64,000 nt of DNA from contig JAAZAN010000091.1 of assembly GCA_012514315.1 (NCBI GenBank), forward strand, positions 25,146-89,145. Reading direction: 5' to 3'. Made by a program: the position numbers and the translations under genes. The notes under the pieces are model-generated. The model made no database searches. It saw nothing but the letters and a program-made list of their open reading frames with translations, and was not told where the DNA came from. The DNA is from Chloroflexota bacterium. Its GTDB lineage: Bacteria; Chloroflexota; Anaerolineae; B4-G1. Of this stretch, positions 40,518 to 58,586 are shown piece by piece (position 1 is the stretch's first letter; each line of letters begins with the position of its first letter).

Positions 40518-40527
40518 GAGGACGACG

Positions 40528-41529
40528 ATGTCACTGAGAGTTGCGGTTGTCGGACTGGGGAACATCGGGAACATCCATGCCGGGATCTACAAGGAGCACC
40601 CGGAGTGTCAGATCGTTGCGGTGTGCGACATCATTGGCGAGCGAGCCGACCGGGCGGCCGAGAAGTACAGTTGCCCAGCTTACTACAGTGTGCAACAGAT
40701 GCTGGCCAGTGGTGTGGCGCTGGATGCAGTGAGCGTGTGCACGGCCGGTGTGGAGAACGGCGGAGATCATTACGAACCCACAATGGAATTGCTGCAAGCG
40801 GGTATTCCGGTGCTTGGAGAAAAGCCCATCTCAAACGAGCTCGATAAAGCGCGCGAGATGGTGGCTCTCGCGACAAGCAGGAGTCTCCGCTATGGCATCA
40901 ATCTGAACCATCGCTTCACCCCAGCCGCGTTGAGGGCTAAGGAATGGGTCGAGGAAGGGCGCCTGGGAGAGCTCAACATCATCAATATGACGATGTGGAT
41001 CAACAATCCCAACGAGAGCTCCCCGTGGTTCCACATTCGTGCGTTGCACCCGCACTCGGTTGACGTTATGCGGTATTTCGGCGGCGACGTCGCCAAGGTG
41101 CAGGCCTTCTTCAAGAAGGGCAAGGGACGCAAGATCTGGTCCAATGTCCAGGTCAATGTTCTGTTCGAGAACGGCATTCTCGGTCATCTGACCGGAAGCT
41201 ACGATGGAAGCTTCGGTGCGGGGGGAAGCTACGGGTTGGAGACACTGGAGGTGGTCGGCTCCGATGCTCGTTTCGTGCTGCGCGATGCGTGCGAACACCT
41301 CGAGTATTACCCGAGGTTCTCACCAGAAACCGTCACTTACGATTACCTGGGCGGGATGAAGAGCTTTGGCGATACATTCAAGAGCCGAATCGACAGGTGG
41401 ATCGAGCAGAACCTTCAACAGGTCAGGCCTGAGGAGATTGACGCGTCAGGTGAAGAGGCACTGAAGGCTCAGACAGTACTGGAAGGCGCGATCGAATCCT
41501 GGCAGACAGGTCGAGTCATCACATTGTAG
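40528..41529 (+). CDS. Gfo/Idh/MocA family oxidoreductase (copy A)
   Basis: MSLRVAVVGLGNIGNIHAGIY; GEKPISN; GGAGGA RBS before ATG 40528. Confidence 0.9.
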   Translation: MSLRVAVVGLGNIGNIHAGIYKEHPECQIVAVCDIIGERADRAAEKYSCPAYYSVQQMLASGVALDAVSVCTAGVENGGDHYEPTMELLQAGIPVLGEKPISNELDKAREMVALATSRSLRYGINLNHRFTPAALRAKEWVEEGRLGELNIINMTMWINNPNESSPWFHIRALHPHSVDVMRYFGGDVAKVQAFFKKGKGRKIWSNVQVNVLFENGILGHLTGSYDGSFGAGGSYGLETLEVVGSDARFVLRDACEHLEYYPRFSPETVTYDYLGGMKSFGDTFKSRIDRWIEQNLQQVRPEEIDASGEEALKAQTVLEGAIESWQTGRVITL

Positions 41530-41572
41530 ATCACCGCACCACGACTATCCGGATGGAGTAATCGTCAGAATC

Positions 41573-42334
41573 ATGTCAACTATCACCATCATTGGCCGCG
41601 GGCACTCTGGCACGCGCGCCATATCCCACACGCTCTATGCCAGCGGTGTCTTCATGGGCAACTGCATCAACCGATCGGGCGATATGATACCTCCCGAGAA
41701 TATGTATGAGGCCTGCCGGGTTATCTCACGCTACGTGGAATGGGGGGGCGATCTCGAGTGGGACTTCAGCCAACTGCTCACCGGGGATATCGATCCGGAA
41801 TTTGTACGGCTGATCACGGCCTACCTGAAGCCTGTCCTGGACAGTAACGACGAGCACAGGGGCTGGAAGATCCCGGAGACCACCTTGGCGTTTCCTTGGA
41901 TCGTCCGCATGCTTCCTGACATCAAGTACATCTTCTGGATCCGAAATCCACGCGACTGCATCCTGCGCCCCCACGTGACGGACGATCTGCGGGATTTCGG
42001 GATTCCCTACCCGGAAACCGATGACGTCCGACTGCGCCGCGCAATCTCGTGGAAGTACCAGTACGATCTGGTCCAGGCTGTTCCACGTCCAGAGCATTGG
42101 ATCGAGGTGAAGCTTGAGGACTTCATCTTGCAGCAGGATGAAACACTCGCACGCCTTGAGGACTTCCTACAGATCAAGCTGGCCAAGATACCCGTTCATC
42201 CAGAGGTCATCGATCGCTGGAAACAGGACACGGGCGCCAACTACTTCGACTTCTTCGAACCCGCTGCGCGGGCGTATGGATACCGGATACCGGATGGCAC
42301 TGCAGGCAGACAAGGAGCATCAGAGAATGCTTAG
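41573..42334 (+). CDS. Sulfotransferase-like protein
   Basis: P-loop-like IIGRGHSGTRAISHTL; IFWIRNPRDCIL; VKLEDFILQQDETLARLEDFL. Confidence 0.75.
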   Translation: MSTITIIGRGHSGTRAISHTLYASGVFMGNCINRSGDMIPPENMYEACRVISRYVEWGGDLEWDFSQLLTGDIDPEFVRLITAYLKPVLDSNDEHRGWKIPETTLAFPWIVRMLPDIKYIFWIRNPRDCILRPHVTDDLRDFGIPYPETDDVRLRRAISWKYQYDLVQAVPRPEHWIEVKLEDFILQQDETLARLEDFLQIKLAKIPVHPEVIDRWKQDTGANYFDFFEPAARAYGYRIPDGTAGRQGASENA

Positions 42335-43319
42335 GGTATGTGTAATTGGAATGGGCCCCATCGGCAACCGCCACGCAGATATGTATACGGCGGATCCACT
42401 GGCTGAACTGGTCGGGGTATGCGATATCCTCCACGATCGAGCGGATGCGGCAGCCCAACGACTGGGCGTCCCAGCCTTCTACGACGTGACAACGATGCTG
42501 GCCGCTCTGCAACCTGACATCTGCAGCGTAGCCACCGGCGGCTACGAATATGGCAGCGAGCACTGCGTCCCCACCCTTCAGGCGCTGGAAGGCGGCTGTC
42601 ACGTGCTGTGCGAGAAACCCATCTCCAACGATATCGCCGAGGGCGAGACGATGGTCCGGAAAGCACAGGAGAAGGGGCTCTGTCTGGGCGTCAATCTCAA
42701 CCACCGATTTACGCCGGCTGCACTGCTGGCCCGGCGCTGGCTGGATGAGGGCCGTCTGGGGCGCCTGCTATTCGTCAACATGAGCATGTGGATCATGAAC
42801 CCGCGCGAGAGTTCGCCCTACTTTCAGATCAAGGCACTTCACCCACACACGGTCGACGTCATGCGCTACTACTGCGGCGACGTCGAGGCGGTACAGTGTT
42901 TCGCGATCAAAGCGCCGGGGCGCAAGATCTGGTCCACTGCTCAATTCAACATGCGCTTCAAGAATGGCGTCGTGGGTTCGCTCACCGGCAGCTATGACAT
43001 CGAGCGGGGACATCCGATGGAACGCTGCGAGGTAGCGGGCACAGGTGGCCGCTTCGTGGTCGAGGATATGTATCGCGAGGCCACCCTCTATCCGGCGGGC
43101 AATCTCGAGAAGACAGTCTACACAAATCCGATCTTTGGGGGAATGCGCGGGTTTGAGGATACGTTCGGCAACCGCATCCACCGCTTCCTGGAACAGATCG
43201 AGGCCCGCGTTGCCCCCGATGAGATCGACGGATCCGGAGCCGATGGACTCGCCGCACAGAAGGTTCTGGCGGCGGCGATCGAGTCCCTAGAGAACGAAAC
43301 CGTCGTCTACGTGAAGTAG
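42327..43319 (+). CDS. Gfo/Idh/MocA family oxidoreductase (copy B, paralog of 40528 gene)
   Basis: MLRVCVIGMGPIGNRHADMY; CEKPISN; ATG overlaps the sulfotransferase-like 3' end by 8 nt. Confidence 0.9.
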   Translation: MLRVCVIGMGPIGNRHADMYTADPLAELVGVCDILHDRADAAAQRLGVPAFYDVTTMLAALQPDICSVATGGYEYGSEHCVPTLQALEGGCHVLCEKPISNDIAEGETMVRKAQEKGLCLGVNLNHRFTPAALLARRWLDEGRLGRLLFVNMSMWIMNPRESSPYFQIKALHPHTVDVMRYYCGDVEAVQCFAIKAPGRKIWSTAQFNMRFKNGVVGSLTGSYDIERGHPMERCEVAGTGGRFVVEDMYREATLYPAGNLEKTVYTNPIFGGMRGFEDTFGNRIHRFLEQIEARVAPDEIDGSGADGLAAQKVLAAAIESLENETVVYVK

Positions 43320-43373
43320 CCGAGCGTTGTTTGCGCAATATCCCACACGAGGGGAGTGAATGGAGATACGGAT

Positions 43374-44213
43374 ATGAAACTTGGATGCAGCACAATCTTG
43401 TACGGAGGATATAGCCTGGACGAAGCGCTGGATGGCATTGCCAAGGCAGGATATGCGGCCATAGAGCTCTGCGCACGTCCCGGTATGGCCCCTCATGTTG
43501 AGATTGGGAAGTCAGATAGCTACTATCTGAACATCAAGAACCAGATCGCCTCGCGTGGCCTCGCCATCGAATCACTGGCAGGAACGGGCGGCATATCGAT
43601 GACCAGCGACGACTTCCCCCGAGTGTTAGAGGCGGCCCGGTTGCTGGGAGCACCGATGATCGCTGAGGGTGCTGGGGGCGAGGCTCCTATGGTCGAGAAT
43701 GACGCCTTCGCACCGGAGTACGAGGCCTCACTGCACGGCGTTATCGACATCCTCAATCGAGCTGCTGAGCAGAGCGCTGAATACGGCGTCAAGCTGGCGA
43801 TCAAGCCACACGTGGGTACGGCGATCTACTCGTGCAAGTCGATTCTGAAGGCTATGCCTCAGCTCAATGCCGATTGGATCGGTCTGAATTACGACGCATC
43901 ACACATCTGGCGCTCAGGCACCGGCGAGGATCCCCTTGATACACTCCGGCAGGTGAAACAGTACGCCATCACCTTTCGCATTCGCGACAATCGAGCCTCG
44001 CGGGAGCGTCCCATCGGCCCAGTCGAGAACCAAATTCCAGGAAACGGCGTTTTGGATCTCCCCGCACTCGCCCAGGAGATGCAGACAACCGAACGCGCTC
44101 AGTACGTTGTCCTGGAGATCGTCGGAACTCACAACGGCACGGGGTACTCACTGGAATCCGTTCAGGGCGTGGTCGACAGATCATTCGCCTACCTGAGCCC
44201 ACTGTTCAGCTGA
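43374..44213 (+). CDS. Sugar phosphate isomerase/epimerase (TIM barrel)
   Basis: MKLGCSTILYGGYSLDEALDGIAKAGYAAIELCA; NYDASHIWRSG; VLEIVGTHNG. Confidence 0.85.
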   Translation: MKLGCSTILYGGYSLDEALDGIAKAGYAAIELCARPGMAPHVEIGKSDSYYLNIKNQIASRGLAIESLAGTGGISMTSDDFPRVLEAARLLGAPMIAEGAGGEAPMVENDAFAPEYEASLHGVIDILNRAAEQSAEYGVKLAIKPHVGTAIYSCKSILKAMPQLNADWIGLNYDASHIWRSGTGEDPLDTLRQVKQYAITFRIRDNRASRERPIGPVENQIPGNGVLDLPALAQEMQTTERAQYVVLEIVGTHNGTGYSLESVQGVVDRSFAYLSPLFS

Positions 44214-44339: not shown

Positions 44340-45257
44340 CTACTCCGTGAGAGGCCCTGCGTAGATCGTCACACGCGTCTCGATCTTCTCGCCCGGACCA
44401 AGCACCGAGCATTGGCCCAATCCCGCTGCCTCATTGACCGATAGCGGCATGGTCGTGCACGGTTCGAGAATCGCCACATAATGATCGTCGAATCCGCCGT
44501 ACGAGGCGAAATACCACACATACGGGAAAACGTCCGTATCAAAGCGATACTCGAACATCTTGGCGTGCGCGGCGCTCTTCCAAGACACGCGCCCTTCTGT
44601 CAGATCATAGATGAACAAGAAATCCATCGTACCGTCCAGCGCCGGAATGCGATTGGCGTGTTGCCCCTCGATAACCGGCCACTCGAACGGCTCGGGGCGC
44701 GTCCAGCGTGACCACTCAGGATCGACCACCCTCCCAGTTCGAGCAGGACACGCAATCAGATCCCCTTCTGAGATGCGCAAAGCAGCGTGCAGTTTCCAGA
44801 GGAACTCCCGCCGCTCATCAGTCGTGTTCTCGATCAGGTAATCGACATCGATCACCGGCTCCCCGGCTCGCAGCGTCAAACGTCTCCGATACTTCAGGCC
44901 ACACAATGGGAGAACACCCTCCACCACCAGCGATTCGCCATCGACCTGATAGTCCAGCGCAGTCGTCCACAATTCGCCATGATCCGGGCTGTCGATCCCA
45001 TTGATCTGTTCCGGGATATCGTTAGGCAGCAGTTCATCGATCCCACCGTAGAAGTTGGGATCATATTCACTGCCTGGCGTGAGCTTCTCCAGTTCCAGAC
45101 GCGGATTGTGCCAGAGAAACTGGTACCCGGAATCCAGCTCGGTGAGATTCACGATGCGCCCGCCGACCTCAGGAGCAACATCCACTCTCAGTCGATCGCT
45201 CTCCAATCGTACAATCGACGCCTGATCGATCTTCAACCCCTCTTCAATCCTGGTCAT
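44340..45257 (-). CDS. Aldose 1-epimerase/galactose mutarotase-like protein
   Basis: LRVDVAPEVGGRIVNLTELDSGYQFLWHNPRL; GGIDELLPNDIPEQING; DVDYLIENTTDERREFLWKLHAAL. Confidence 0.7.
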   Translation of the reverse strand: MTRIEEGLKIDQASIVRLESDRLRVDVAPEVGGRIVNLTELDSGYQFLWHNPRLELEKLTPGSEYDPNFYGGIDELLPNDIPEQINGIDSPDHGELWTTALDYQVDGESLVVEGVLPLCGLKYRRRLTLRAGEPVIDVDYLIENTTDERREFLWKLHAALRISEGDLIACPARTGRVVDPEWSRWTRPEPFEWPVIEGQHANRIPALDGTMDFLFIYDLTEGRVSWKSAAHAKMFEYRFDTDVFPYVWYFASYGGFDDHYVAILEPCTTMPLSVNEAAGLGQCSVLGPGEKIETRVTIYAGPLTE

Positions 45258-45296
45258 CGTTATCCTCCTCGTGGTCCTACCATCATTTCCGCCATT

Positions 45297-46766
45297 CTAC
45301 CGATTGGCGCCGCCCGACTTCCCGGTCTCCGTGATCGCCCGCGCGACCGCATCTTCCAGAGCTGCGTCGACACCGGCCGGCAGCGGCACAGGCCGAGACT
45401 CGGCCAGTATCTGGAGTACACGCTCGTGGGCAACCTCGTGGATCATTCGGCTCCCTGTATCCAGCCATTCCTGAATCGTCTGACGTCGGAACAGGTTCGG
45501 GAAGAAAAGCTCTCGACGGAAATGTTGGACTGTGTGATCGTGCCCCAGATAGCTGCCGCCCGGTCCGATGTCCCTGATCACGTCCAGCGCCAGTGCTTCG
45601 TCATCTACGACAACAGGGGTCAGCACACGCCGGATCATATGCACCAACTCGTCACAGATCACCACCATTTCCTGCGATCCGTACAATCCGAAGGAGAGGG
45701 TACCCAGGCTTTGCGAGAGTGACATACCTGCCAACGCATTCAGCAACATATTCATCATCGCTTCAGATGCCGCTTCAGCGTCGGGCGCCTTGGCCTCCAC
45801 GCCGCCGCCCAATCCGTAGACGGGGAGGTCATAGAAACGGGCCATCTGCGCCGCAGCGGCCTTGCCCAGGCTTTGCTCCGGACTACCATAGGTGCATTGC
45901 GTCGTTTTCATATCGAATACGTCCGTATCCGGCTTGAGAACAACCTTGGCCCCCGGCTCGATCAGTTGCACCAGCACGACACCGAACAGCACCTCCGCGA
46001 AGGTCAGAGCGAGCGTACCGGCCACAGTGGCCGGCCCACTCGCTCCCATCAACGGCCCCGGGGAATACAGGATCGGCACACCCGCCTTGACCGCGTCCAC
46101 AATCCCCTCGTTCGTGATGGCGATCTTTAACGGAGATACAGGGGTGACGATGCCAAGCACACTGGGCTGTTCGCGCAGCACGCCCTCGCCCCCCGAAGCA
46201 GCCGCGGCGATCTCCAGCAGCCGTCCCGTGAACGGCCGTTCAAGCACGTTGATCACCGTTGGCTTGGTAGTATTGCGGAAGATCGCGTCGAAGTCGTGGA
46301 AGAAGATCACATCAGTCGGCTGATCAGCAGACATACATAACGTCTGAACGAAGTCGATGTTCGGCATCGCATGGCCGATACGAGTGCTGGCGACCATGTC
46401 GTCCTTGGTAGGACGACGTGGCCCCCAGTGATCGTAGTCGAAGAAGGAGGGTTCCGAGGTCCCCCCCATGCCGAAGTAGCTACGGCCTGGCTCAATCATC
46501 AGGTCCATACCGGGATCGTTGCGTCCGTGAAGTATGAACGATCTCGGAGCGGACTCTACCGCCGCCATCACCAAATCCGCGGGCACCCTGATCATACGGG
46601 AGTCGCGATCAACTCTGGCGCCGCCCTGCTCGAAGATATCTAGAAACAGGGTTGACTCACTGAAGATACCTGGGTTATCGAGAAGCGACAACGCCGCGTT
46701 GTGAATGCGCTGTACGTCACCCTCAGATAGCAGATCGAGCATCCCTCCCTTGATCCCAACTTTCAT
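45297..46766 (-). CDS. Trimethylamine methyltransferase (MttB) family protein, non-pyrrolysine type
   Basis: ALSLLDNPGIF; YFGMGGTSEPSFFDYDHW; GVPILYSPGPLMGASGPATVAGTLAL; LGTLSFGLYGSQEMVVICDELVHMIRR. Full-length ORF without internal amber. Confidence 0.88.
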   Translation of the reverse strand: MKVGIKGGMLDLLSEGDVQRIHNAALSLLDNPGIFSESTLFLDIFEQGGARVDRDSRMIRVPADLVMAAVESAPRSFILHGRNDPGMDLMIEPGRSYFGMGGTSEPSFFDYDHWGPRRPTKDDMVASTRIGHAMPNIDFVQTLCMSADQPTDVIFFHDFDAIFRNTTKPTVINVLERPFTGRLLEIAAAASGGEGVLREQPSVLGIVTPVSPLKIAITNEGIVDAVKAGVPILYSPGPLMGASGPATVAGTLALTFAEVLFGVVLVQLIEPGAKVVLKPDTDVFDMKTTQCTYGSPEQSLGKAAAAQMARFYDLPVYGLGGGVEAKAPDAEAASEAMMNMLLNALAGMSLSQSLGTLSFGLYGSQEMVVICDELVHMIRRVLTPVVVDDEALALDVIRDIGPGGSYLGHDHTVQHFRRELFFPNLFRRQTIQEWLDTGSRMIHEVAHERVLQILAESRPVPLPAGVDAALEDAVARAITETGKSGGANR

Positions 46767-46781
46767 CTTCAGACCTCCTCA

Positions 46782-48224
46782 TCACTCATTTCGAAGCAGC
46801 GGGAGACATGGCGCGTCCGGAGCGCCACCTAGCCGCTGCCAGGCGTCCGCGAAGATACGGCGAACATCCTCAGCCTCCCGTGCCGGGGGGCGGTAGCTGT
46901 ATCCGGCCAGCCGGGCCAGCACATCCTCACGGGCCCGCTGTCTGGCGGTGCGTCCGGCGCCGGTCGCGAAACTGTGCCACGACATCCTGTCGAACAGGCG
47001 CGGAAACCAGTAGGTCTCTCGATAATGATCGAGCGTGGTGTTGGCGTCCACGTAGCCTTTACCGATTCCCTCACGAATCACGTCTATCCATTGCTCGGGA
47101 TCCTCATCCGGGATGCCGCGTCCGAGTTGCTCGAGAGCATCGCGCAACTCGATATCGGCCCGAGCCTGTTCGGGACTGTAGATATCGTCGAAGCTAAGGA
47201 CGCCAATGTAATGCAGGTCATCGCAGCCCGACATGACCCCGAAAGCGCCCGCCATGCCCTTCTCCAGGCCCGCCTGGAGACCCGGACGTTTGGCTTGCGT
47301 CCCCAACATCATAGAATAGCCGGAACGTGCATCGTAGAACCGGTTGATCTGTGCCCTGACCCAGTACATCCAGGCGCACTCGGGCATCCCCCCCACGATC
47401 GTGAATGTCCGTAAGTCAAATGGGAACATACCAATACTGAATCGGACCGGCTTGCCCCCGCTGACCACGTGCAACGTTATGGCGCCACCCAACCCCTCGG
47501 CGATCGATAACACCCACGCCGCCCGAAGGCGAATCGGCCCCGTCGCACCGACCGCTGGATAGGTCGTCACAGAGTAACGCTTCCATCGCTCGACGTACTT
47601 CACAGCTATTTCGAACTCATACCCTGAGAGGCGTAGCGGGCTCACCGGGAAGATGTTGGTCGCGTCCATTGGATCACCCATTGCGTCCGCCATCTCAAAC
47701 AAGTAGGGCAGTGCTTCAGGTGGATGTAGTGTATCAAGCGTCGGCCCTCCGGTCAAGTACTCAGCGCCCACTCGATACTCCACGATTGCCTGTAGTTGCT
47801 GAGGAACATCGCGGGGCACGCCTGGCACATAGCTGCCCAGCCCCAGGTCGCGCATGGTCTCCACACTCTTGGTCGCCTCAACCACGTTTGCGGTGGTCAT
47901 CAATTCGATATCGTCGCTGAACGGACTGTGATAGTACTGGCACATATCGCCGACAGTCACGGTCAAGCGGTCGGCTCTGCGCCGCGACGGCACACCCTCC
48001 CACTCGCAGCGCAGAGCCGCCAGCCTATCCTCGACGAACCCGGGGGCGAAGTGAGCGCGATCGCCCGAGACTCGAACCCCAGCGCGCTTCAGTGCGTCCA
48101 GGGCAACGGGGTTCTCGATCGCAATGCCAATCTCGTCAAGCACCCTCAGTGCCGCAGTATGCATCCGCTCGAGGTCCTGCGGAGCAAGACTCATCTGTCC
48201 GGCCATCATTCTACTCAGATCCAC
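46782..48224 (-). CDS. Second MttB-family methyltransferase-like protein (divergent)
   Basis: MHTAALRVLDEIGIAIENP; IFPVSPLRLSGYEFEIAVKYVERWK; VGATGPIRLRAAWVLSIAEGLGGAI; adjacent to the first MttB gene. Full-length ORF. Confidence 0.8.
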   Translation of the reverse strand: MDLSRMMAGQMSLAPQDLERMHTAALRVLDEIGIAIENPVALDALKRAGVRVSGDRAHFAPGFVEDRLAALRCEWEGVPSRRRADRLTVTVGDMCQYYHSPFSDDIELMTTANVVEATKSVETMRDLGLGSYVPGVPRDVPQQLQAIVEYRVGAEYLTGGPTLDTLHPPEALPYLFEMADAMGDPMDATNIFPVSPLRLSGYEFEIAVKYVERWKRYSVTTYPAVGATGPIRLRAAWVLSIAEGLGGAITLHVVSGGKPVRFSIGMFPFDLRTFTIVGGMPECAWMYWVRAQINRFYDARSGYSMMLGTQAKRPGLQAGLEKGMAGAFGVMSGCDDLHYIGVLSFDDIYSPEQARADIELRDALEQLGRGIPDEDPEQWIDVIREGIGKGYVDANTTLDHYRETYWFPRLFDRMSWHSFATGAGRTARQRAREDVLARLAGYSYRPPAREAEDVRRIFADAWQRLGGAPDAPCLPLLRNE

Positions 48225-48228
48225 AATG

Positions 48229-49107
48229 CTACCCCTTCAGCCCAGTCGTAACAATCCCCTGCACGATGTACCGCTGTGCAATGAAGAACAGCACGATACA
48301 CGGCGCAACAAACATAACACTCGCTGCCATCTGGACAGACAGATCACCACCACCGCGCATCGAACGCAGGAAATTGATGCCTAGGGCCAGTGTGAACTTC
48401 TCGCTATCACTCAGATAGATCAGCGGTCCCATGAAATCGTTCCAGTAGAACATAAAGGAGAAGATCGCTACGGTAGCCAGGGCCGGTTTGGCCAAAGGGA
48501 GAACGATCTGCCAATAGATCCGGAACTTGCTCGCACCGTCCACTTCAGCCGCCTCGTCCATCTCGTGGTTGATCGTGAGAAAGAACTGGCGCAATAGAAA
48601 CACGTTGTACGCCGGCGCAAAGAAGGGCGGGATGATCAGCGGCAAATAGGTGTTCACCCACTGCAACTTATTGAACATCACGAAAGTTGGCACCATCGTG
48701 ACCGGGTACGGAATCATCATCGTCGCCAGAAGAATCATGAACAGCACGTTGCGCCCTGGAAAGCGCAGCCGCGCGAAAGCGAAGGCCACCAGAGAGCAGG
48801 ACAGGACCTCGCCGACCAACGACAGGCCGGTGACGAGCAGACTATTCTTCAGGTACCCCGTGAACGGGATCGTCTGCAGAACCTTCACGTAGTTTTCCCA
48901 CTCGAAACTCTCAGGAATGAACTGAGGCGGGAACGTAATCCCGGTTCCATACGGCTTGAGCGACGACGAGAGCGTCCAGAGGAACGGCAACAGAATCACA
49001 GTGCCGAGTATCAATAGCATGCTGTAGATGAACACGCGCTGGACAACCACCCACACCGTGCGCTGCCATGTCCTTCTGCGCTTGGTCAACGTATTGGTCG
49101 CCATCAC
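48229..49107 (-). CDS. Carbohydrate ABC transporter permease (MalG-like, CUT1)
   Basis: EAAEVDGASKFRIYWQIVLPLAKPALATVAIFSF EAA loop; 6-TM type. Confidence 0.92.
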   Translation of the reverse strand: MMATNTLTKRRRTWQRTVWVVVQRVFIYSMLLILGTVILLPFLWTLSSSLKPYGTGITFPPQFIPESFEWENYVKVLQTIPFTGYLKNSLLVTGLSLVGEVLSCSLVAFAFARLRFPGRNVLFMILLATMMIPYPVTMVPTFVMFNKLQWVNTYLPLIIPPFFAPAYNVFLLRQFFLTINHEMDEAAEVDGASKFRIYWQIVLPLAKPALATVAIFSFMFYWNDFMGPLIYLSDSEKFTLALGINFLRSMRGGGDLSVQMAASVMFVAPCIVLFFIAQRYIVQGIVTTGLKG

Positions 49108-50057
49108 ACCCTCCCCTCCTCGCTAGTCTCGTAGTAGACCCAACGAGCGGACGAACGAAGCAGGGCTACGGTGAGAGTGAGGATCACCAGGAACAGGAAC
49201 CATGCCAGCGCTGAGGCATAGCCCATTTCGAACCAACTGAATGCGTTCCGATACAGGTACAGCAAGTAGAACAGGGTCGCATTCGCCGGTCCACCCCCAG
49301 TCATAATATACGCTTGTGTAAAGGTCTGAAAAGTACCAATAATGCCCATAATCAGCACGAACAAAATAGACGGGGAAATCATCGGCAAGGTGATGCGCCA
49401 GAAGCTCCGCCAGCTTGAGGCGCCGTCAATCTCAGCGGCTTCATACAGGGGCTTGGGTACGCCCTGAAGCGCCGCCAGAAAGATAACCACGGTGCCCCCA
49501 ATCCCCCACAGACTCATCAGCACGAATGCCCAGAGCACCCACCGTGGATGTCCCAACCAGGCAGGGCCGGTAATGCCAACCAGCGAAAGAAAGTAGTTGA
49601 GAATCCCAAATCGATAATTGAAGATCCAGGCGAACACGATGGCCACCGCGACGCCGGAGATCACCGATGGCAAGTAGAATACCGTCCGAAAGACACCGGA
49701 CAGCACGACGTTCTGATTGAGCAGAACTGCGATGCACAGCGCGCCGATGATCGTGAGCGGTACGCTGAATATCGTGTAAGTCACCGTGACCCTCAACGAA
49801 TGATAGAACAGCTCATCGCTGAACATTCGCGCATAGTTGGCCAACCCAAGCCATACCGGCGGCTGGATGATCTTGTATGCCGTGAAACTCAGATAGAGCG
49901 AAAAGAGCATCGGACCAGCCAGGAATACGATCAACCCGAGCCACCATGGACTCAGGAACGCGTAGGCGACCAACGTTTCACGGTGTCGATTGCTCAGCTT
50001 GAACCGATGCCCGCTCTGGGCGCCCGGTGATATGGTGTTCATCCGTGGATCTGTCAT
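49104..50057 (-). CDS. Carbohydrate ABC transporter permease (MalF-like, CUT1)
   Basis: EAAEIDGASSWRSFWRITLPMISPSILFVLIMGIIGTFQTF; 4-nt overlap with the MalG-like gene. Confidence 0.92.
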   Translation of the reverse strand: MTDPRMNTISPGAQSGHRFKLSNRHRETLVAYAFLSPWWLGLIVFLAGPMLFSLYLSFTAYKIIQPPVWLGLANYARMFSDELFYHSLRVTVTYTIFSVPLTIIGALCIAVLLNQNVVLSGVFRTVFYLPSVISGVAVAIVFAWIFNYRFGILNYFLSLVGITGPAWLGHPRWVLWAFVLMSLWGIGGTVVIFLAALQGVPKPLYEAAEIDGASSWRSFWRITLPMISPSILFVLIMGIIGTFQTFTQAYIMTGGGPANATLFYLLYLYRNAFSWFEMGYASALAWFLFLVILTLTVALLRSSARWVYYETSEEGRV

Positions 50058-50170
50058 ACGATCGCTCCTCCTGCGCGGAGATGCCGGTGGCCGGGAATCT
50101 TGCACCAGGCCACCGGCCCTGAAGCTCCGCAGACGTGCGGTCTCGCACGCTTGTCACTTGAACCCGCGGG

Positions 50171-51556
50171 CTAGCCTCGAGCTAACTCCTCATCGATCTT
50201 GGGGCACACATTGGTAGCGGCTTGTTCCGCAGTCTCCTCCCCAATGAAGACCAGATCGATCTCAGCCTGGGCGATGCCGCTGATCTTGTCGAACTTCTCA
50301 CCAGCGCCTGGGACTCTCAGCAACCCAGGCTCGGTGGCCAACGTGATCAGCGGTTCAAGGCCCAATTCACGGTTCTTCTCCGTGGCAAAGATGTGCAGCA
50401 GCTGCTTCAGAGATGGCACCATCGGTTGGGCAGCCTGGTTCACCTGATCCAGGATGAAATCGCGCATGTACAGCCAGGCGACGTTGGGGCGCGTCGTCTG
50501 CGTGGACATGCCCCAGCACCAGAAATGCTCATACCACACCCTGTTGCCGTCTGGGGCCTTAGGGGAAAGGACGGCTCCCCAGTTGAAGCCGGTCTCGTCC
50601 CGAGCCGCTTCGAACGCGGGCACATCCCAGCAGTTGCCCAGATACATTGAGACCATGCCGGTCTGGAACGCATTCTCCGGCCCCTGCAACGCCTGGGCCT
50701 CGGTAGATGGCAGCGTCGTCTCATCAATCAGCACCATATCCGCCCAGTACTGAAGCGCCTCATACGCCTTGGGATCGGTCAAGGTGCACTGTGTCTCATC
50801 CTCATTGAATAGATCTCCACCGTTGGACCAGATCCAGTAGAGCCAGGGCACGAACCACAGACTGTAGACGAGGCCCCACCGGTTGGGCACATCGGTCAGT
50901 TCCTGAGCCGTCGCCCTCATATCGTCCCAGGTCCAGTCAGACGTCGGGTAGTCCAGTCCGGCCGCATCGAAGTGGTCAACGTTGTAGTAAAGCGAGATCG
51001 GTCCGGGCATAAACCCCTGGCAGAATGCGTAAACGCTGTTCTGCCACGCGCCGCCATCGAAAGCCGCGGGCACCAGATCATCCTTCTTCACCTTGTCATC
51101 CGCCTCGAAGAACGGGTCCAGATTGACGAGAGCGCCGTTCGCTGCATAGGGCTGGATATACCCCTCCCACATGTCATACAGATCAGGCATCGTCCCGGCA
51201 GCGATAAGCGTCTGGAGCTTCTCGAAGTAGCTCTGCCCTGCCGGAACCGTGTCCTGCTTCACGGTGACGCCAGGGAAGTCGACGACCCACTCCTCATTCC
51301 ACTGGGCCCGATGGTCCACGTCTTCCGGGCTCGAGCAGCAGAGCAGAATCGTGAGTTCGCCTTCCTCGTAGCCCGGGGCTGGTTCCATCGTCGTCTCGAC
51401 AATCATAGTCTCCCTGACCACAACTGTCTGTTCAACCGGAACCTCGACCTCTCTGACCTCGGTCACCACCTGAGGGGCACAGGCCGACAGCGCCAGCCCG
51501 GCGGAACCCGCCCCCATCAGCTTGAGCAGATCACGACGCGACATTTGTTCAGACAT
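50171..51556 (-). CDS. Extracellular solute-binding lipoprotein of CUT1 ABC transporter with Tat-type signal
   Basis: MSEQMSRRDLLKLMGAGSAGLALSACAPQ (SRRDLLK twin-arginine motif + lipobox Cys); SBP family 1-like body. Confidence 0.9.
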   Translation of the reverse strand: MSEQMSRRDLLKLMGAGSAGLALSACAPQVVTEVREVEVPVEQTVVVRETMIVETTMEPAPGYEEGELTILLCCSSPEDVDHRAQWNEEWVVDFPGVTVKQDTVPAGQSYFEKLQTLIAAGTMPDLYDMWEGYIQPYAANGALVNLDPFFEADDKVKKDDLVPAAFDGGAWQNSVYAFCQGFMPGPISLYYNVDHFDAAGLDYPTSDWTWDDMRATAQELTDVPNRWGLVYSLWFVPWLYWIWSNGGDLFNEDETQCTLTDPKAYEALQYWADMVLIDETTLPSTEAQALQGPENAFQTGMVSMYLGNCWDVPAFEAARDETGFNWGAVLSPKAPDGNRVWYEHFWCWGMSTQTTRPNVAWLYMRDFILDQVNQAAQPMVPSLKQLLHIFATEKNRELGLEPLITLATEPGLLRVPGAGEKFDKISGIAQAEIDLVFIGEETAEQAATNVCPKIDEELARG

Positions 51557-51708
51557 TTCCGTCCTCCTCATCGAGATACATATCCTGCTGACCTGCGTCA
51601 TCTACGGTCAGCCGCACACCAGAGGCCCCCATACGGGACCAAGCCCACCGCGATATCATCGATCGAACCTCGATGTACACCTCCTTCCTGTCTACCCCAA
51701 CCGCTCTC

Positions 51709-54700
51709 TCAGTAACGCACGCGGATCAACATAGATCCAGTGACATTGTCAAGACGTATTGTCTCTGTCTCAATGTTGAAATTCGAATGCTCAACACCAT
51801 TTACCCAGACTGATCGCATCGGCCTACACTCAGGATGCCGCAGCCTCAGAAGAATCTGCTCCGGCAGATTCCTGGTTGGCGAATCTAGATGGACCTCGAT
51901 CGATCCCGTCGCTACGTGCGAGACGATATTCAGACTCACCTCGCCGAAATGAGTCATAGCCCGTCGTATGCGGATCGTCTTTCCATCCTCCAGCCAATAG
52001 CGCGGAACCGCTTGGCCAACGAACAACGTATCTCCGTGTTCAGCCAGGAACATCAACCGCAACCACCAAGTTGATAGCGCCTCATCGGACGACTTGAAGT
52101 GATCGCCCTTCCAGTCCGCCAACGTAGGCAGCGGGTGTTCAGTTAACATCATCGTGTCGGGGTAGAACGCCGACGCGAAGGGATTGAAGTAGGAGCGTAG
52201 ATAGTGCTTGGGCTCATCCCTGGCGAGGTAGATCAGCGGGAATATGAGCAGATTCGGCTGCATCGAGAAGCCACCCCAACTGAACCACTGTCGATCGAAA
52301 TCCTCAGTCTGATAGCCGTACTGCTTGGACAGGAAGAGGTTATCCTCGTAGTCCTCGATAATCCAGCGAGCAGCCGGCTCATCGGGGGCGATAATCCCAC
52401 AATATATCAAGTGAGCGGCCCCTTCCAGGACTTCACGGAGCCAGCCGAAATCGCGCCCGCGCCGCTGCAATCGATCGGGGAAATGGGGGACCCACGTCCC
52501 ATCTCGCAGCCGGACTACGGGTGAGCGCGCACAGGCCTCGAAGAACCCGTCCCGCAGGTCGTCACCATAGGCCGCCGAATCATCACGCAACCGGCTGGCC
52601 TCTGGGTGACCAATCTCAGCTAGGACATCCGCCGCCGAGCACATACCCTGGTAGGCATACGCGTTGGTCGAGAGCCACGTCCAATAGTCGGTGACATCCT
52701 CCAGCGATCCTGTAGGCAGGAACCCATAGTCGATCGGCCGTCGCCCGCCCTCTCCAATCACCATCGTCGCCCGACGCTCGCGCGTGATCCAGTCACACCC
52801 CTTGATCAGTGCAGGCGCCGCTCGTTCCAGCCAGGCACGGTCGCGCGTGAGCCGATAGTGCTCCGCAAGGCACCACAGGACCCATCCCTGGTTGCGGTTG
52901 TAGCCAGCGACCTCGTAGCCGCCGGAACCATAGAAGACGCCTTCGGTGCTCTGGAAGTTTCCGGGCAAAGGCGCTGTACCCTGGTACTCAATGTAGAGAT
53001 CCAGACAGCGTTCCGCCTCTGCGTGATACCCACGCCGATCCAGGTCCGCAATGACCATGCACCCCTCATCGGGAAACGATCCGTAGTGGAACCCGCCGCA
53101 CCGCGCCACATTGCGGTCCGCGCTCGGTTCGCGGTCGTTGATCACCAGCATGTGCATCAAGTGCGTCCGGTAGAAGTTGTTGAGCGTCTCGTTGGGGGTC
53201 TCGATCTGCGCCCCCTCCGCCGTCCGACGTCGCCAGAACTCGATGACGCGTTCCCGATCCTCGTCATACGACAACGCACTCAGACGGTTCAGCTCTTCCT
53301 GCTCGGTCAGATCAATGAACGGCAGCTTGATAGTGAACGTATGGGCGCTGCACGACGGCACCGAGAACTCGTAGGCCACTTCCCCATTCCCATTGCACAG
53401 CTCTCCAACGGCGCCTATGTCTATGCCGTAGCACATTCGGGTCGCGGACGGACCATCCGCGTAGACGAGTCCATCCCGCGCTTCCAGCTTCTGCGGCCCC
53501 TGCCCATCCACGGTCGCCGTCAGGGGCAATCGTACCTCAACCGGCCCAGCGCTCCGGTTGGTGACCTTGATACGCATCATAGCGACAACCGGATCATCGC
53601 CCTCCATCCGATCGTTCAGGATATCGCCTTCCAGCCAGGTCGCGTATGCCTCCTGTTCATAGCACAGACTGCCATCGACCCAGGCAGTGTGAATCACAGG
53701 CAGATATCCATCAAGAATCGACCGGTCACCTGACGCCGTCTGGGGAAGGCCAAATCCATACCGCAGTTCTCTGCCATCCCAACCCAGTCGGGGCGTATCC
53801 TTACCTGGAACTCTACGGATGAAGTTCTCACCCAGGAAGACCTCTCCGTTCGGCTCGACGCCGAACTTCTGCCGGCCGCCCTCACAGCCCAGCACGAAAT
53901 AGAACTGGCCTTTGGTTGGCATATCAGCCCAGGCCCGCTCCCACGTTTGCTCCGGCAATTCGCCAACGCGCTGATACAGCGTGGAGTCGTGTGACTGCTC
54001 CCAACTCGCTTCGTACGCCCGCAGGCGTATACCGAGATCGGCGCGACTCACGAGAACTCCCAGATCACGGATATACACCGGTTCCCGCAACGCCTCATCG
54101 ACCGACACAGAGAGACTGTGCACTGCAGAGCGCACGGTGAGGATCGTTCGATCATACGAGTTCGAGTCTTCGGAATGCGCATATCGGGCGCCGATCCTCA
54201 CACCGCCCGTGTCCTGACCCGCAGTGGCCGATTGCCAGACTCCCGACTCCTGTACACGTGTATCCGCCGTCAGCGGAGTGACGCTCAGAACCTCGCCATT
54301 GAACGCCTCGGCGTGACCGTCCCACACCATCTCATTTCCATCAGGTGAACACCACTCGACAACAAGCTCAGCGTCGCGCCACGTGGAGTCTGTGTAGACG
54401 TGAACCTGCCTCAGCCCGCATTGTGGCAGCCCGAAATGGAGTCGCAGTTTGATGGTCCTGCGGAACTCAGCCGGAAAGTCATGCTCGGAAGGAAACTCGT
54501 TCAGATTGAGCGGGCGAAAGGTGAAGTCCAGCACATGGTCGTTCGCGGTGAATTCGCAGTCCGCCGTCTGCCAGCGACCGTTCGTCCAGTCATCGATGGC
54601 CAGCCAGCCCTCACTACCGGAACCGACATCGGCGCCTTTGGGCACGCGGACCTTGGGCCAAGTCTGTTGCCAGTATTCGAGCCGGACACTCGCTCCGTCC

Positions 54701-54852
54701 GGACAACAGCCTGGATCAAAACGGGCCACCACGCGACACACATCGCGTGGATCATCCCACCAGAGCTCATAGTCATGTTGCGACGTCCACCGCTGGGAGG
54801 CTGCAAAGGGGCTGACGTCAACGGCGTGTTCCACAACCGATGATTCGGTCAT
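51709..54852 (-). CDS. Large six-hairpin (alpha/alpha toroid) glycosidase-like protein
   Basis: 1047 aa; AGYNRNQGWVLWCLAEHYRLTRDRAWLERAAPALIKGCDWI; YWTWLSTNAYAYQGMCSAADVLAEIGHPEASRL; no obvious signal peptide. Confidence 0.72.
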   Translation of the reverse strand: MTESSVVEHAVDVSPFAASQRWTSQHDYELWWDDPRDVCRVVARFDPGCCPDGASVRLEYWQQTWPKVRVPKGADVGSGSEGWLAIDDWTNGRWQTADCEFTANDHVLDFTFRPLNLNEFPSEHDFPAEFRRTIKLRLHFGLPQCGLRQVHVYTDSTWRDAELVVEWCSPDGNEMVWDGHAEAFNGEVLSVTPLTADTRVQESGVWQSATAGQDTGGVRIGARYAHSEDSNSYDRTILTVRSAVHSLSVSVDEALREPVYIRDLGVLVSRADLGIRLRAYEASWEQSHDSTLYQRVGELPEQTWERAWADMPTKGQFYFVLGCEGGRQKFGVEPNGEVFLGENFIRRVPGKDTPRLGWDGRELRYGFGLPQTASGDRSILDGYLPVIHTAWVDGSLCYEQEAYATWLEGDILNDRMEGDDPVVAMMRIKVTNRSAGPVEVRLPLTATVDGQGPQKLEARDGLVYADGPSATRMCYGIDIGAVGELCNGNGEVAYEFSVPSCSAHTFTIKLPFIDLTEQEELNRLSALSYDEDRERVIEFWRRRTAEGAQIETPNETLNNFYRTHLMHMLVINDREPSADRNVARCGGFHYGSFPDEGCMVIADLDRRGYHAEAERCLDLYIEYQGTAPLPGNFQSTEGVFYGSGGYEVAGYNRNQGWVLWCLAEHYRLTRDRAWLERAAPALIKGCDWITRERRATMVIGEGGRRPIDYGFLPTGSLEDVTDYWTWLSTNAYAYQGMCSAADVLAEIGHPEASRLRDDSAAYGDDLRDGFFEACARSPVVRLRDGTWVPHFPDRLQRRGRDFGWLREVLEGAAHLIYCGIIAPDEPAARWIIEDYEDNLFLSKQYGYQTEDFDRQWFSWGGFSMQPNLLIFPLIYLARDEPKHYLRSYFNPFASAFYPDTMMLTEHPLPTLADWKGDHFKSSDEALSTWWLRLMFLAEHGDTLFVGQAVPRYWLEDGKTIRIRRAMTHFGEVSLNIVSHVATGSIEVHLDSPTRNLPEQILLRLRHPECRPMRSVWVNGVEHSNFNIETETIRLDNVTGSMLIRVRY

Positions 54853-54957: not shown

Positions 54958-55070
54958 GGGTCCAGATCCACTCGATAATGGACCTGGGCCATATGCCGCC
55001 CACCTTTAATCATATCGTATCGTGTGGCGTGCGTCCAGGTCAGAATCTGTTCAGATATTGTCCACCGCCT

Positions 55071-56294
55071 ATGCTGATTGAGGAAATAGAACAAGAACTC
55101 CGGGATGCGCTGTCGCGTCTGTACGATGCCAGTTACGAGCCATCCGACGTGCTATATAGCCTAACGGGTAGTGAGCGCCGGGATGGCGCATTGGGTGTTC
55201 AGTCCGCCATCATCAAGGCAATCGAGGATCTGAAGCCGCATGACTCCGCACCGACATCGGCTCAGGTAAGGCAGCTTCACGGCCTATTGCACAATCGGTT
55301 CATCCTGAAGCTCACCCAGGAAGAGACCGCCGAGCGTATGCATATGAGTCTGAGTAGCACGCGCCGCGCACAGCGCACTGCCGTGCACACGCTAGCACGC
55401 GTACTGTGGGAACAGAGCCAGCCTGGTGGACAAGCCATAGCGGAAGCTGACCAGCTCGATGATGCCCAAAACGGAGAAGCTCTCGACATCCAGGCGGCAG
55501 ACTGGCAGTCTCAGACCAAGCAGGAATTGGCATCCCTGCGAGCCAGCGCGCCGGAGACCATATCCGACGTCGCAGAGACAATCAATGGCGTGCTTGCCCT
55601 GGGAAAAGCCATTGCAGGCCGGGACGGCCAGCATCTGCAGGTCGGCTTTGTTCAGCCTCATCTGACGTCAGCCATCCATCCATCGGCGTTGCGACAGGTG
55701 CTGATCAGTGCGATCAGACGGATGAGCCGCTATGCGCCAGTTGGAGACATCGCGATCTACGCGGGACTGGAAGACGGCGATGTGAAGATCACGATAACGG
55801 GCGCCGTCCAGGCGGGCCAAACACCCAGCGAGAGCGATCTGATCACCGATATTCTGTTACCCGATGGCACGGACATCGGCGCAAGAATCGATGATCAACG
55901 GGTATTCCTCTGGATCGAAGCTCCATCAGTCGGTAGAATCACCGTACTGGTCGTCGACGACAACGCGGACATGATCCGCTTCTATCGCCGGTCCACGGAA
56001 GGAACACGGTATCACATCGTCCATCTGGAACACGGGCAGGAGCTATTCGAGGCGATGGAGAGTCTTGAGCCCGACATCATCGTGTTGGACGTGATGCTTC
56101 CCGACACGGATGGCTGGGAGCTGTTGATGCGTTTGCACGAAGACCTGGTGACACGCCCGATCCCGGTGATTATCTGCTCCGTCGTCCGCGAACGCGACTT
56201 AGCGCTCTCACTGGGCGCTGCCGAGTACCTCTCGAAACCGGTTCGACGTCGCGAGTTCATTGAAGCATTAGATCAGGTGCTTCCCCCAACTTAA
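55071..56294 (+). CDS. Response regulator with N-terminal sigma70-r4-like HTH, degenerate HATPase-like middle and C-terminal REC
   Basis: RFILKLTQEETAERMHMSLSSTRRAQRTAVHTLA; ITVLVVDDNADMIRFYRR; PDIIVLDVMLPDTDGWELL; YLSKPVRRREFI. Probable start MLIEEIEQEL. Confidence 0.8.
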   Translation: MLIEEIEQELRDALSRLYDASYEPSDVLYSLTGSERRDGALGVQSAIIKAIEDLKPHDSAPTSAQVRQLHGLLHNRFILKLTQEETAERMHMSLSSTRRAQRTAVHTLARVLWEQSQPGGQAIAEADQLDDAQNGEALDIQAADWQSQTKQELASLRASAPETISDVAETINGVLALGKAIAGRDGQHLQVGFVQPHLTSAIHPSALRQVLISAIRRMSRYAPVGDIAIYAGLEDGDVKITITGAVQAGQTPSESDLITDILLPDGTDIGARIDDQRVFLWIEAPSVGRITVLVVDDNADMIRFYRRSTEGTRYHIVHLEHGQELFEAMESLEPDIIVLDVMLPDTDGWELLMRLHEDLVTRPIPVIICSVVRERDLALSLGAAEYLSKPVRRREFIEALDQVLPPT

Positions 56295-58470
56295 GGAGTG
56301 TGCGGGAGGCGCTTACCGAACAGCGCAATAGTTCATTGAGCGTCAGACCTCTATCGATAGCCATCAGGAAAAACGGCGTTGCGAGCGGTTCGTCGGCAGG
56401 ATCCTGCGCAGAAAGAAAGAAGACGGGCACGTCGTCCGTACTCTGGCTCCGGACGATCTCGTCAAGAACGCGCCAGCCGTCGAGATCTGGCATCACAATG
56501 TCGAGTAGAATGAGATCGAACGCACCGGTCTGCACTTCGGCCAATGCCTGCGCGCCGTTTGACGCGACCTCTACGTCGAGCCCGCGATCGCAGGCGTGTA
56601 GCATGCGCGTGAGCAACTGCAGCACATCGGGATCATCATCCACGACCAGAACGCGTTGAACCGGGTCGCCAACCGCCTCGATGGCCCTCTCCAGATCTGC
56701 TCGCGTAACCGGCTTGGTCAAGTGTCCTCGGGCGCCTGCCTCGAGGGCACGCTCCGCAGGTCGAGGCGCCTCACACAGAATGACGGGGGTGGCAGGCGCC
56801 ACGTCCAGAAGCGACTTCATCGCAGCACGCAGGTCCTCCTTCTCGAGTGCGTTGAACAGCACAAACTGAGATGGACACTGCTCCAGCGTCTCTCTCAGGT
56901 CATCCAGATCAGAAACCTGCACAAACTCGATGGCATCTCCCTGGTGCGCGAACTCCGGGTACAGCGCCCCGACCGGGTCATAGACGGCGATACACGGCCG
57001 TACCAGATCGCTGACCGAGTCCGGCCGGCTGGTTAGGAATGCGCCCTCACGCCACTCCCAGTCGCTCCGGATGTGATGTCCAGGCCTGGCCACGTGCTCG
57101 ATCGGCGGTGACACTGGCAGAGTAAAGAAGAACGTGGTCCCTACACCCGGTTCACTCTCCAGCCACATACGGCCACCGTGAAGCTTCACGAACTGCTCGC
57201 TGATGCTCAGCCCAAGACCGCTCCCCCCGCTATCACGCCACAGCTCACTCCGACCCTGGCTGAACGGCTCGAAGATCCGCTCTTTGTCTTCGGGGGAGAT
57301 GCCCGGCCCCGTGTCCGCCACACTGACGACGACGCTGTGATCCTCTTGTAACACCGTTACGGATATTCCCCCGACCTCCGTGAACCGGGCTGCGTTACTC
57401 ATCAGGTTCAGGATCACCTGCTGAATTCGAACTCGGTCGCAATACACTTCGGGCAATTCGGCCGGCACGCGCACATCCAGAGCCAGGCCCTTCTTGTTCA
57501 GAAGAGGGGAAACAGCCGTTACACTCCGGTCAACAATGCGCCTCAGATCGACGCGCTCGCGGTGTAGCAGCAGACGCCCTGCCTCCATCCGGGTCAGATC
57601 CAGAACATCGTTGATCATGTTCGATAGGTGCTCGCAGTTGCGGTGCACCACCTCAAGGTCCTCTCGCATCTTGGGCGAAGGCGCCACAGTATAGATTTCT
57701 GGGCTCTCCACCATCAGATCAACCAGACCGATGATCATGTTCAGTGGAGTACGGAACTCATGGCTCACATTGGCCACAAACGTCGTCTTAGCCCGCTGCG
57801 CCTCCTCCGCAATCTGCCGCAAGGCAGCGGTTCGTTCGTTGGCCAGCGCAAGCTGGCGGTTGGCATGAGCCAACCCCTCCAACGCTCGTTCCAACTCCTG
57901 CTTGCGATCCTGAGCCTCCAGCAGAAACTCCTGTGCCTGCCGAAAGTACTCATCCAGCCACTCGGCGAGTTGGTTTGTCGGCCTGCGTGTCGCGATCGCA
58001 ACGGCCACCATCGCCCATATTCCCACCAACGTCACCACTCCGATGGATGGATCGATCACAGAATGAGGCGCAGCGAGGAGGAGACCAATGACCACAGCTG
58101 ACTCCAGAACGGCCGTCGTCACGGCAGCTGCGAGCCCGATCAGCGGAACTGCCAGTCCCACAGGGATCGCCGCCAGGGTCAAGGCCGCTGGAATCTGCAT
58201 CCACAAGCCCGTGCAGAAAGGGGCAGCCACCGCCGCCAGAATGGCGGCCCAGCGTCCCCACGCAGCCCGCCAGACTGTGATCAGCCAGCCCACCCCGGCC
58301 AGGCCAGACAGGAGCAGAAGCAGCGTTCCCATACGATCGACTGTCTCCCAGGGAAGCAGGAGCGTCTGCGTGCCAATATACAGGAGCGCTCCAACGATTG
58401 GCATAGCGACAAGCACCCATCGTGGAGATAGTTGGAGCTCAGATCTCAGACTGGAAGTGGATTCATTCAT
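56257..58470 (-). CDS. Membrane hybrid histidine kinase (HisKA-HATPase-pseudoREC-REC)
   Basis: FVANVSHEFRTPLNMIIGLVDLM; NLMSNAARFTEVGG; DTGPGISPEDKERIFEPFSQG; VLVVDDDPDVLQLL...FDLILLDIVMPDLDGWRVL. Confidence 0.92.
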   Translation of the reverse strand: MNESTSSLRSELQLSPRWVLVAMPIVGALLYIGTQTLLLPWETVDRMGTLLLLLSGLAGVGWLITVWRAAWGRWAAILAAVAAPFCTGLWMQIPAALTLAAIPVGLAVPLIGLAAAVTTAVLESAVVIGLLLAAPHSVIDPSIGVVTLVGIWAMVAVAIATRRPTNQLAEWLDEYFRQAQEFLLEAQDRKQELERALEGLAHANRQLALANERTAALRQIAEEAQRAKTTFVANVSHEFRTPLNMIIGLVDLMVESPEIYTVAPSPKMREDLEVVHRNCEHLSNMINDVLDLTRMEAGRLLLHRERVDLRRIVDRSVTAVSPLLNKKGLALDVRVPAELPEVYCDRVRIQQVILNLMSNAARFTEVGGISVTVLQEDHSVVVSVADTGPGISPEDKERIFEPFSQGRSELWRDSGGSGLGLSISEQFVKLHGGRMWLESEPGVGTTFFFTLPVSPPIEHVARPGHHIRSDWEWREGAFLTSRPDSVSDLVRPCIAVYDPVGALYPEFAHQGDAIEFVQVSDLDDLRETLEQCPSQFVLFNALEKEDLRAAMKSLLDVAPATPVILCEAPRPAERALEAGARGHLTKPVTRADLERAIEAVGDPVQRVLVVDDDPDVLQLLTRMLHACDRGLDVEVASNGAQALAEVQTGAFDLILLDIVMPDLDGWRVLDEIVRSQSTDDVPVFFLSAQDPADEPLATPFFLMAIDRGLTLNELLRCSVSASRTLLKLGEAPDLMLQ

Positions 58471-58586
58471 GACAACTCTCACTGAAGCAGAACGGGGAGG
58501 CAATCTGTGCAGAACACAGTTGGCGGCGCGATGCCGAAGCAGGAGGGAGTGTATTGCTCTAGAGTTCGAACCTGTGCCAACGCACC

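Follow-up and report, generated by a model that had tools for sequence, protein, structure and literature searches.

The characterised members of the MttB superfamily act, to our knowledge, on small amines, and most of its proteins have no known substrate. The quaternary-amine:corrinoid methyltransferases MtgB, MtpB, MtcB, MtyB and MthB are PF06253 proteins without pyrrolysine. In Eubacterium limosum, MtpB, MtcB and MtyB share one corrinoid protein encoded elsewhere, and the genes of MtcB and MtyB adjoin transporter genes (PMC8604678). The pyrrolysine-containing MttB of the MttB/MttC trimethylamine system has the same PF06253 fold and the same core residues. Three-component corrinoid demethylation is also carried out by the O-demethylases and dehalogenases of the URO-D family (MtvB, OdmB, VdmB, MtoB and CdmB), which are known to act on aromatic ethers and haloalkanes rather than on sugars.

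Two MttB homologues, MttB-A and MttB-B, are encoded in an operon within the 64-kb stretch of DNA from an anaerobic Chloroflexota bacterium analysed here (the window; positions 25146–89145 of contig C31 in genome G000, 4.29 Mb in 354 contigs). As in E. limosum, the MttB genes adjoin a transporter and lie apart from any corrinoid gene. Unlike in the MtgB-type systems, their partners are a CUT1 sugar importer, a glycosidase-like protein and sugar enzymes, and, in contrast to the URO-D systems, the operon encodes MttB proteins and no URO-D protein. The two proteins also differ from the pyrrolysine MttB in that neither gene contains an in-frame stop, for which reason both were correctly called non-pyrrolysine in the initial annotation; a Gly occupies the aligned pyrrolysine position.

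All seven minus-strand genes previously described in this run proved intact and in place (Table 1). The claim that gaps or overlaps of 4–5 nt separate most of them did not hold. The junctions, read from the mutarotase-like gene to the glycosidase end, measure 39, 15, 4, -4, 65 and 107 nt, and only two of the six are of 5 nt or less (the gap between MttB-B and MalG and the overlap of MalG with MalF). The six-hairpin label proposed for the glycosidase-like protein is plausible but weakly backed, as the TIGR01577 match covers one segment only; no Pfam match was detected, and no PDB relative was found by sequence, profile search included. The SBP_bac_1 protein and the MalF- and MalG-type permeases, encoded together, constitute a CUT1 ABC importer. 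The operon contains no ATPase gene; CUT1 importers often lack an ATPase gene of their own, and a shared ATPase serves several importers.

Table 1. Genes of the MttB-containing operon and the adjoining putative regulators (positions in the window)
Feature	Position	Strand	Evidence
DUF5107/DUF4432 mutarotase-like protein	44340-45257	-	PF17128 26 bits, barely above cut-off; 68% to last L100 gene; 31% to G492 operon protein
MttB-A, non-pyrrolysine MttB homologue	45297-46766	-	PF06253 315 bits; second clade, 100/100; 74% to L100, 57% to G645, 54% to C65
MttB-B, divergent MttB homologue without pyrrolysine, sugar clade	46782-48224	-	PF06253 131 bits; tree; AF2 model; 67% to L100 orthologue
MalG-like permease	48229-49107	-	BPD_transp_1; 457 bits to L100 gene
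MalF-like permease	49104-50105	-	BPD_transp_1; 77% to L100
CUT1 solute-binding protein (SBP)	50171-51601	-	SBP_bac_1 E=2e-27; nearest PDB relatives are sugar-binding proteins; 64% to L100
Large glycosidase-like protein (1047 aa) encoded at the head of the operon	51709-54852	-	TIGR01577 oligosaccharide amylase segment E=2e-12; 67% to L100 orthologue, 36% to C65 paralogue
Response regulator that includes an HTH-like region; divergent from the operon, which it may regulate	54978-56294	+	PF00072, weak Sigma70_r4
Hybrid histidine kinase-like protein; gene convergent with that of the response regulator, may also regulate the operon	56257-58503	-	annotated from sequence

Both MttB proteins cleared the curated PF06253 cut-off of 25 bits across their length. 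In a tree of 81 sequences, MttB-B fell into a 30-member clade (support 97/88), hereafter the sugar clade, within which its orthologue group was supported at 100/100, and MttB-A belonged to a separate five-member clade (100/100). MtgB, MttB and 4yyc were placed outside both clades. The AF2 model of MttB-B built from a 45-sequence alignment reached a pLDDT of 92.8 and replaced an earlier one built from three sequences (pLDDT 53). Its top PDB matches were 9yce, 2qne, 7xcl, 4yyc and 7xcn (TM 0.78–0.81), with MtgB/MttB ahead of all else and MtgB as the top match. MttB-B is thus predicted to have the MttB-type TIM-barrel fold of MtgB and MttB, and the sequence of MttB-A points to the same fold.

The core columns of MttB (D297, E270, P308-E309, S376 and T424) are retained in the alignment. 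The loop around Gly110-Thr111 of MttB touches the corrin (PMC9842639); MttB-A keeps the aligned Gly-Thr pair as well as the rim residue Gly372. The latter is replaced by Asp in MttB-B and in the majority of sugar-clade proteins, but the substitution is not diagnostic because MtgB also lacks a Gly at this position. In wider searches, a GTDB scan with the single MttB-B protein gave no matches, an alignment-based scan returned only G043 itself, and a strict search of the phylum with MttB-A returned only G177, the neighbouring genes of which were uninformative.

Loss of synteny in related genomes had been named beforehand as the observation that would count against the association of the MttB genes with sugar genes. 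The opposite was observed: locus L100 of G462, a 97%-complete genome from another family of the same class, keeps all seven genes in order. The operon is real and conserved beyond its source genome. L100 encodes, in sequence, the glycosidase, SBP, MalF, MalG, MttB-B, MttB-A, an aminotransferase, an epimerase, a URO-D protein, a second epimerase, a transaldolase-like protein, a racemase and the mutarotase, with one extra gene of unknown function between SBP and MalF; identities to the window proteins are given in Table 1. Contig C65 of the window's own genome encodes a glycosidase related to that of the window, a paralogue of MttB-A, a class-III aminotransferase, two xylose-isomerase-like proteins, a transaldolase-like protein, an Fe-ADH and a racemase. 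Since L100 holds the whole set and its second half is found on C65, the window and C65 look like two halves of one pathway.

The class-III omega-aminotransferase follows MttB-A in L100, C65 and G645, and no other partner of MttB-A or of the proteins that replace it is as well conserved. A close aminotransferase orthologue (at least 77%) is present in each of the four genomes that have an MttB-B orthologue (G000, G462, G467 and G493); with up to four candidates scored per genome, it was found in 7 of the 397 genomes of the class. Such co-occurrence has a nominal chance of about 3e-8 if four genomes are counted and of 3e-6 if three genera are, the genomes being non-independent draws. The SBPs adjoining the MttB-B orthologues in G493 and G467 are 57–58% identical to the SBP of the window.

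The neighbourhoods (6 kb) of the 30 sugar-clade loci were compared with those of 43 other MttB loci, contig ends pushing all counts downward. A CUT1 permease was present at 20/30 sugar-clade loci versus 5/43 others and a glycosidase at 21/30 versus 3/43. After the eight seed sequences had been dropped, the difference persisted for both permeases (14/22 versus 5/43, p=3e-5) and glycosidases (13/22 versus 3/43, p=1e-5). A corrinoid gene was found at 0/30 sugar-clade loci (0/22 without the seeds, p=5e-4) versus 16/43 others, a rate inflated because some of the latter loci had been fetched for their adjoining corrinoid genes; in control regions fetched regardless of neighbours it was 5/20. The association of MttB with sugar genes, conserved in another family and statistically enriched, exceeds chance. 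Homologues of the response regulator adjoin other sugar-clade loci, and those of the histidine kinase-like protein (239–614 bits) adjoin the sugar-clade loci L031, L086, L090, L092 and L099; the pair next to the operon may sense its substrate.

A related pattern is seen across the source genome, in which 11 PF06253 matches correspond to about ten genes. Several MttB paralogues share operons with CUT1 permeases and sugar enzymes: one site on C112 encodes SBP, MalG, MalF, MttB, GH4, URO-D, GH4 and PfkB, a second one MalF, MalG, MttB, GH2, an FGGY kinase and a fucose-isomerase-like protein. On C110, MalF, MalG, DUF2961, MttB and FGGY are found together, and on C69 URO-D, SBP, a permease, MttB, a BadF-type kinase and GH4.

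As had been noted from the sequence, none of the ORFs in the window matched corrinoid or activase queries, and its contig showed no PF02607 or PF14574 match, all genome-wide matches lying on other contigs. The genome-wide search revealed MtgC/MttC-like corrinoid proteins on C36 (adjoining an MttB), C5 and C2, together with two RACo-family activases, one of them in the CODH/ACS operon. This Wood-Ljungdahl operon on C301 comprises CODH, ACS/CoFeSP, MeTr, FolD and the activase. No dedicated MtqA-type acceptor methyltransferase was identified, the PF00809 matches of the genome being a DHPS-size protein on C91 and the MeTr of the CODH/ACS operon; URO-D proteins, with 44 family matches in the genome, are alternative candidates for the methyl-corrinoid:THF methyltransferase role. 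A corrinoid-cap protein and an activase were found in each of the 12 genomes of the sugar clade that were tested, which is weak support because 145/200 genomes of the class have an activase anyway.

In related genomes, the same downstream genes follow a corrinoid-MttB pair. Locus L171 of G467 encodes a corrinoid protein, MttB, an aminotransferase (82% to that of L100), an epimerase and a racemase, and comparable sets follow the pair in G514 and G491. In G492 and G515, a single operon encodes MalF, MalG, a corrinoid protein, MttB, URO-D, a mutarotase-like protein, an aminotransferase, an IolO-like epimerase and a racemase; the G492 locus (L205) includes an SBP gene, and in G515 (L206) the contig ends inside MalF. 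Relative to the L100/C65 set, the G492 proteins are 51% (URO-D), 59% (aminotransferase), 54% (epimerase) and 54% (racemase) identical. The corrinoid-adjoining MttBs of G492, G515, G467 and G493 show 24–33% identity to MttB-A and MttB-B, with 24–30% for the MttB of the G492/G515 operon, and represent a different subfamily; for this reason, corrinoid use by the two window proteins is inferred.

Taken together, these data make it somewhat more likely than not that the operon serves to demethylate a sugar or polyol obtained from a glycoside that the cell imports. The methyl groups would probably sit on the nitrogen of an amino-sugar or amino-polyol; their removal would depend on a corrinoid protein provided in trans, and the product would go on to transamination and keto-sugar metabolism. 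An oligosaccharide or glycoside would be taken up by SBP-MalF-MalG and cleaved by the large glycosidase-like protein, the mutarotase-like protein interconverting anomers. The sugar set free, or an amine derived from it, would then be demethylated by MttB-B and MttB-A; the methyl acceptor would be a corrinoid protein that is encoded at another site in the genome and held reduced by an activase, and the methyl groups would pass to methyl-THF and the Wood-Ljungdahl pathway with CODH/ACS. The demethylated amine would probably be removed by the class-III omega-aminotransferase, and the resulting keto-sugar may be epimerised by the IolO-like protein and cleaved in an aldol reaction by the transaldolase-like protein.

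This reading is favoured by the whole operon in G462, the enrichment of the sugar clade beside CUT1 permeases and glycosidases, the corrinoid proteins, activases and CODH/ACS with MeTr in the genome, the aminotransferase, epimerase and racemase genes after corrinoid-MttB pairs in relatives, the retained core columns and predicted fold, and the precedent of a corrinoid protein shared in trans (PMC8604678). Against it stand the corrinoid-free neighbourhoods of the sugar clade, the subfamily difference from the corrinoid-adjoining MttBs, the altered rim position and the lack of an identified MtqA-type protein; moreover, removal of more than one methyl group is not established for non-pyrrolysine MttBs. 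The earlier proposal that the MttBs act on a methylated or quaternary-amine-decorated saccharide thus gained support from synteny, the sugar-associated clade and the aminotransferase/epimerase module, and the substrate itself, like the activities of MttB-A and MttB-B, is inferred. N-methylated aminopentanetetrol, a methanogen lipid head group (PMC6423904, PMC11346949) for which the need for a glycosidase is not obvious, and N,N,N-trimethylglucosamine may be mentioned purely as examples of such compounds.

The methyl group could instead sit on oxygen, the same corrinoid route removing it from a sugar methoxy group and the aminotransferase handling an unrelated amine. O-demethylases do exist among URO-D superfamily members (PMC13222342), and URO-D genes form part of both the L100 and the L205 operon and lie close to 12/30 MttBs of the sugar clade; the window operon, however, has no URO-D gene. 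N-methyl is favoured over O-methyl because the MttB enzymes characterised in the literature consulted use amines (PMC12155760) and because no partner is closer or better conserved than the aminotransferase, which makes the methoxy variant unlikely. A greater departure, in which MttB-B and its sugar-clade relatives dispense with the corrinoid and catalyse an undescribed, different reaction on sugars during glycoside catabolism, was judged a little less credible still. The contrast in corrinoid neighbours between the sugar clade and other MttBs, the changed rim residues and the few corrinoid proteins available to about ten MttBs and the many URO-D proteins of the genome are consistent with it, but the core columns and the fold are retained, the sugar-clade genomes tested encode corrinoid proteins and activases (the latter common in the class), and sister operons contain corrinoid genes.

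The initial annotation had considered a non-corrinoid chemistry from the missing neighbour. The absence itself was correct; it is poor evidence for such chemistry because the machinery is present in trans, the corrinoid gene stands between those of MalG and MttB in related operons, and E. limosum shows the same arrangement, and the missing gene was accordingly dropped as proof of a non-corrinoid function. That the two proteins are ordinary betaine or trimethylamine demethylases placed in a sugar operon by accident appears very improbable: MttB genes are indeed widespread in this class (196/397 genomes at E<=1e-40), but the gene order is conserved across families, the enrichment persists without the seed loci, and neither protein falls within the branches containing MtgB and MttB.

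MttB proteins are already known to carry out corrinoid demethylation. No description of this chemistry joined to CUT1 import, glycosidases and a sugar-aminotransferase module, or indeed of any MttB in a sugar operon, was found in the open-access literature searched. The gene set suggests a route by which methylated sugars, probably amino-sugars, lose their methyl groups. For many orphan MttB genes it supplies candidate functions open to testing, and it suggests that a pool of methylated saccharides awaits identification. Its conservation predicts methylated amino-sugars or amino-polyols as food for anaerobes, the methyl groups of which would be able to enter the Wood-Ljungdahl pathway.

The large glycosidase-like protein of the MttB operon belongs to a family whose members, encoded in the window and in two other loci, are 1047-1154 aa in size. 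Sequence searches of Pfam and the PDB revealed no relatives of this family, whose members may constitute a glycoside hydrolase family that is new. In several genomes, operons of the sugar-clade MttB genes were repeatedly found next to a gene pair for a histidine kinase and a response regulator.

Features in and around the sugar operons
Feature	Location	Strand
Histidine kinase and response regulator pair adjoining sugar-clade MttB operons	window 54978-58503; L031, L086, L090, L092, L099	
Glycosidase-like proteins	window 51709-54852; L026:16163-19627; L100:15719-18949	
Cluster adjoining the operon (sulfatase-like gene, two Gfo/Idh oxidoreductases, IolE-like TIM-barrel protein)	window 38994-44213	+
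Corrinoid protein and URO-D genes within a sugar cluster	L158 (G510:C24), L161 (G467:C389), L162 (G533:C221), L163 (G462:C6)	

In locus L204 (G465:C461, 1-4895), the orthologue (80%) of the class-III omega-aminotransferase was adjoined by a fused B12-type propanediol/glycerol dehydratase gene in place of an MttB gene. Short fragments matching MttB and GH4 were detected close to an intact MttB gene in L051 (G042:C212, 502-969 and 6207-7633), and they represent either broken genes or assembly errors.

The URO-D family was hugely expanded in the own genome (44 places, e.g., L015-L022), with many of the copies housed in sugar operons. The family outnumbers the few corrinoid proteins of this genome by so much that a one-to-one service is not obvious. 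Elsewhere in the same genome, an MFS_2 sugar-transporter gene was immediately followed by a second activase-family gene (L037, G000:C1, 3349-6647). The four sugar clusters enclosing both corrinoid protein and URO-D genes were of the CUT1, GH4, FGGY or Gfo/Idh type and form a URO-D counterpart running parallel to the MttB sugar operons.
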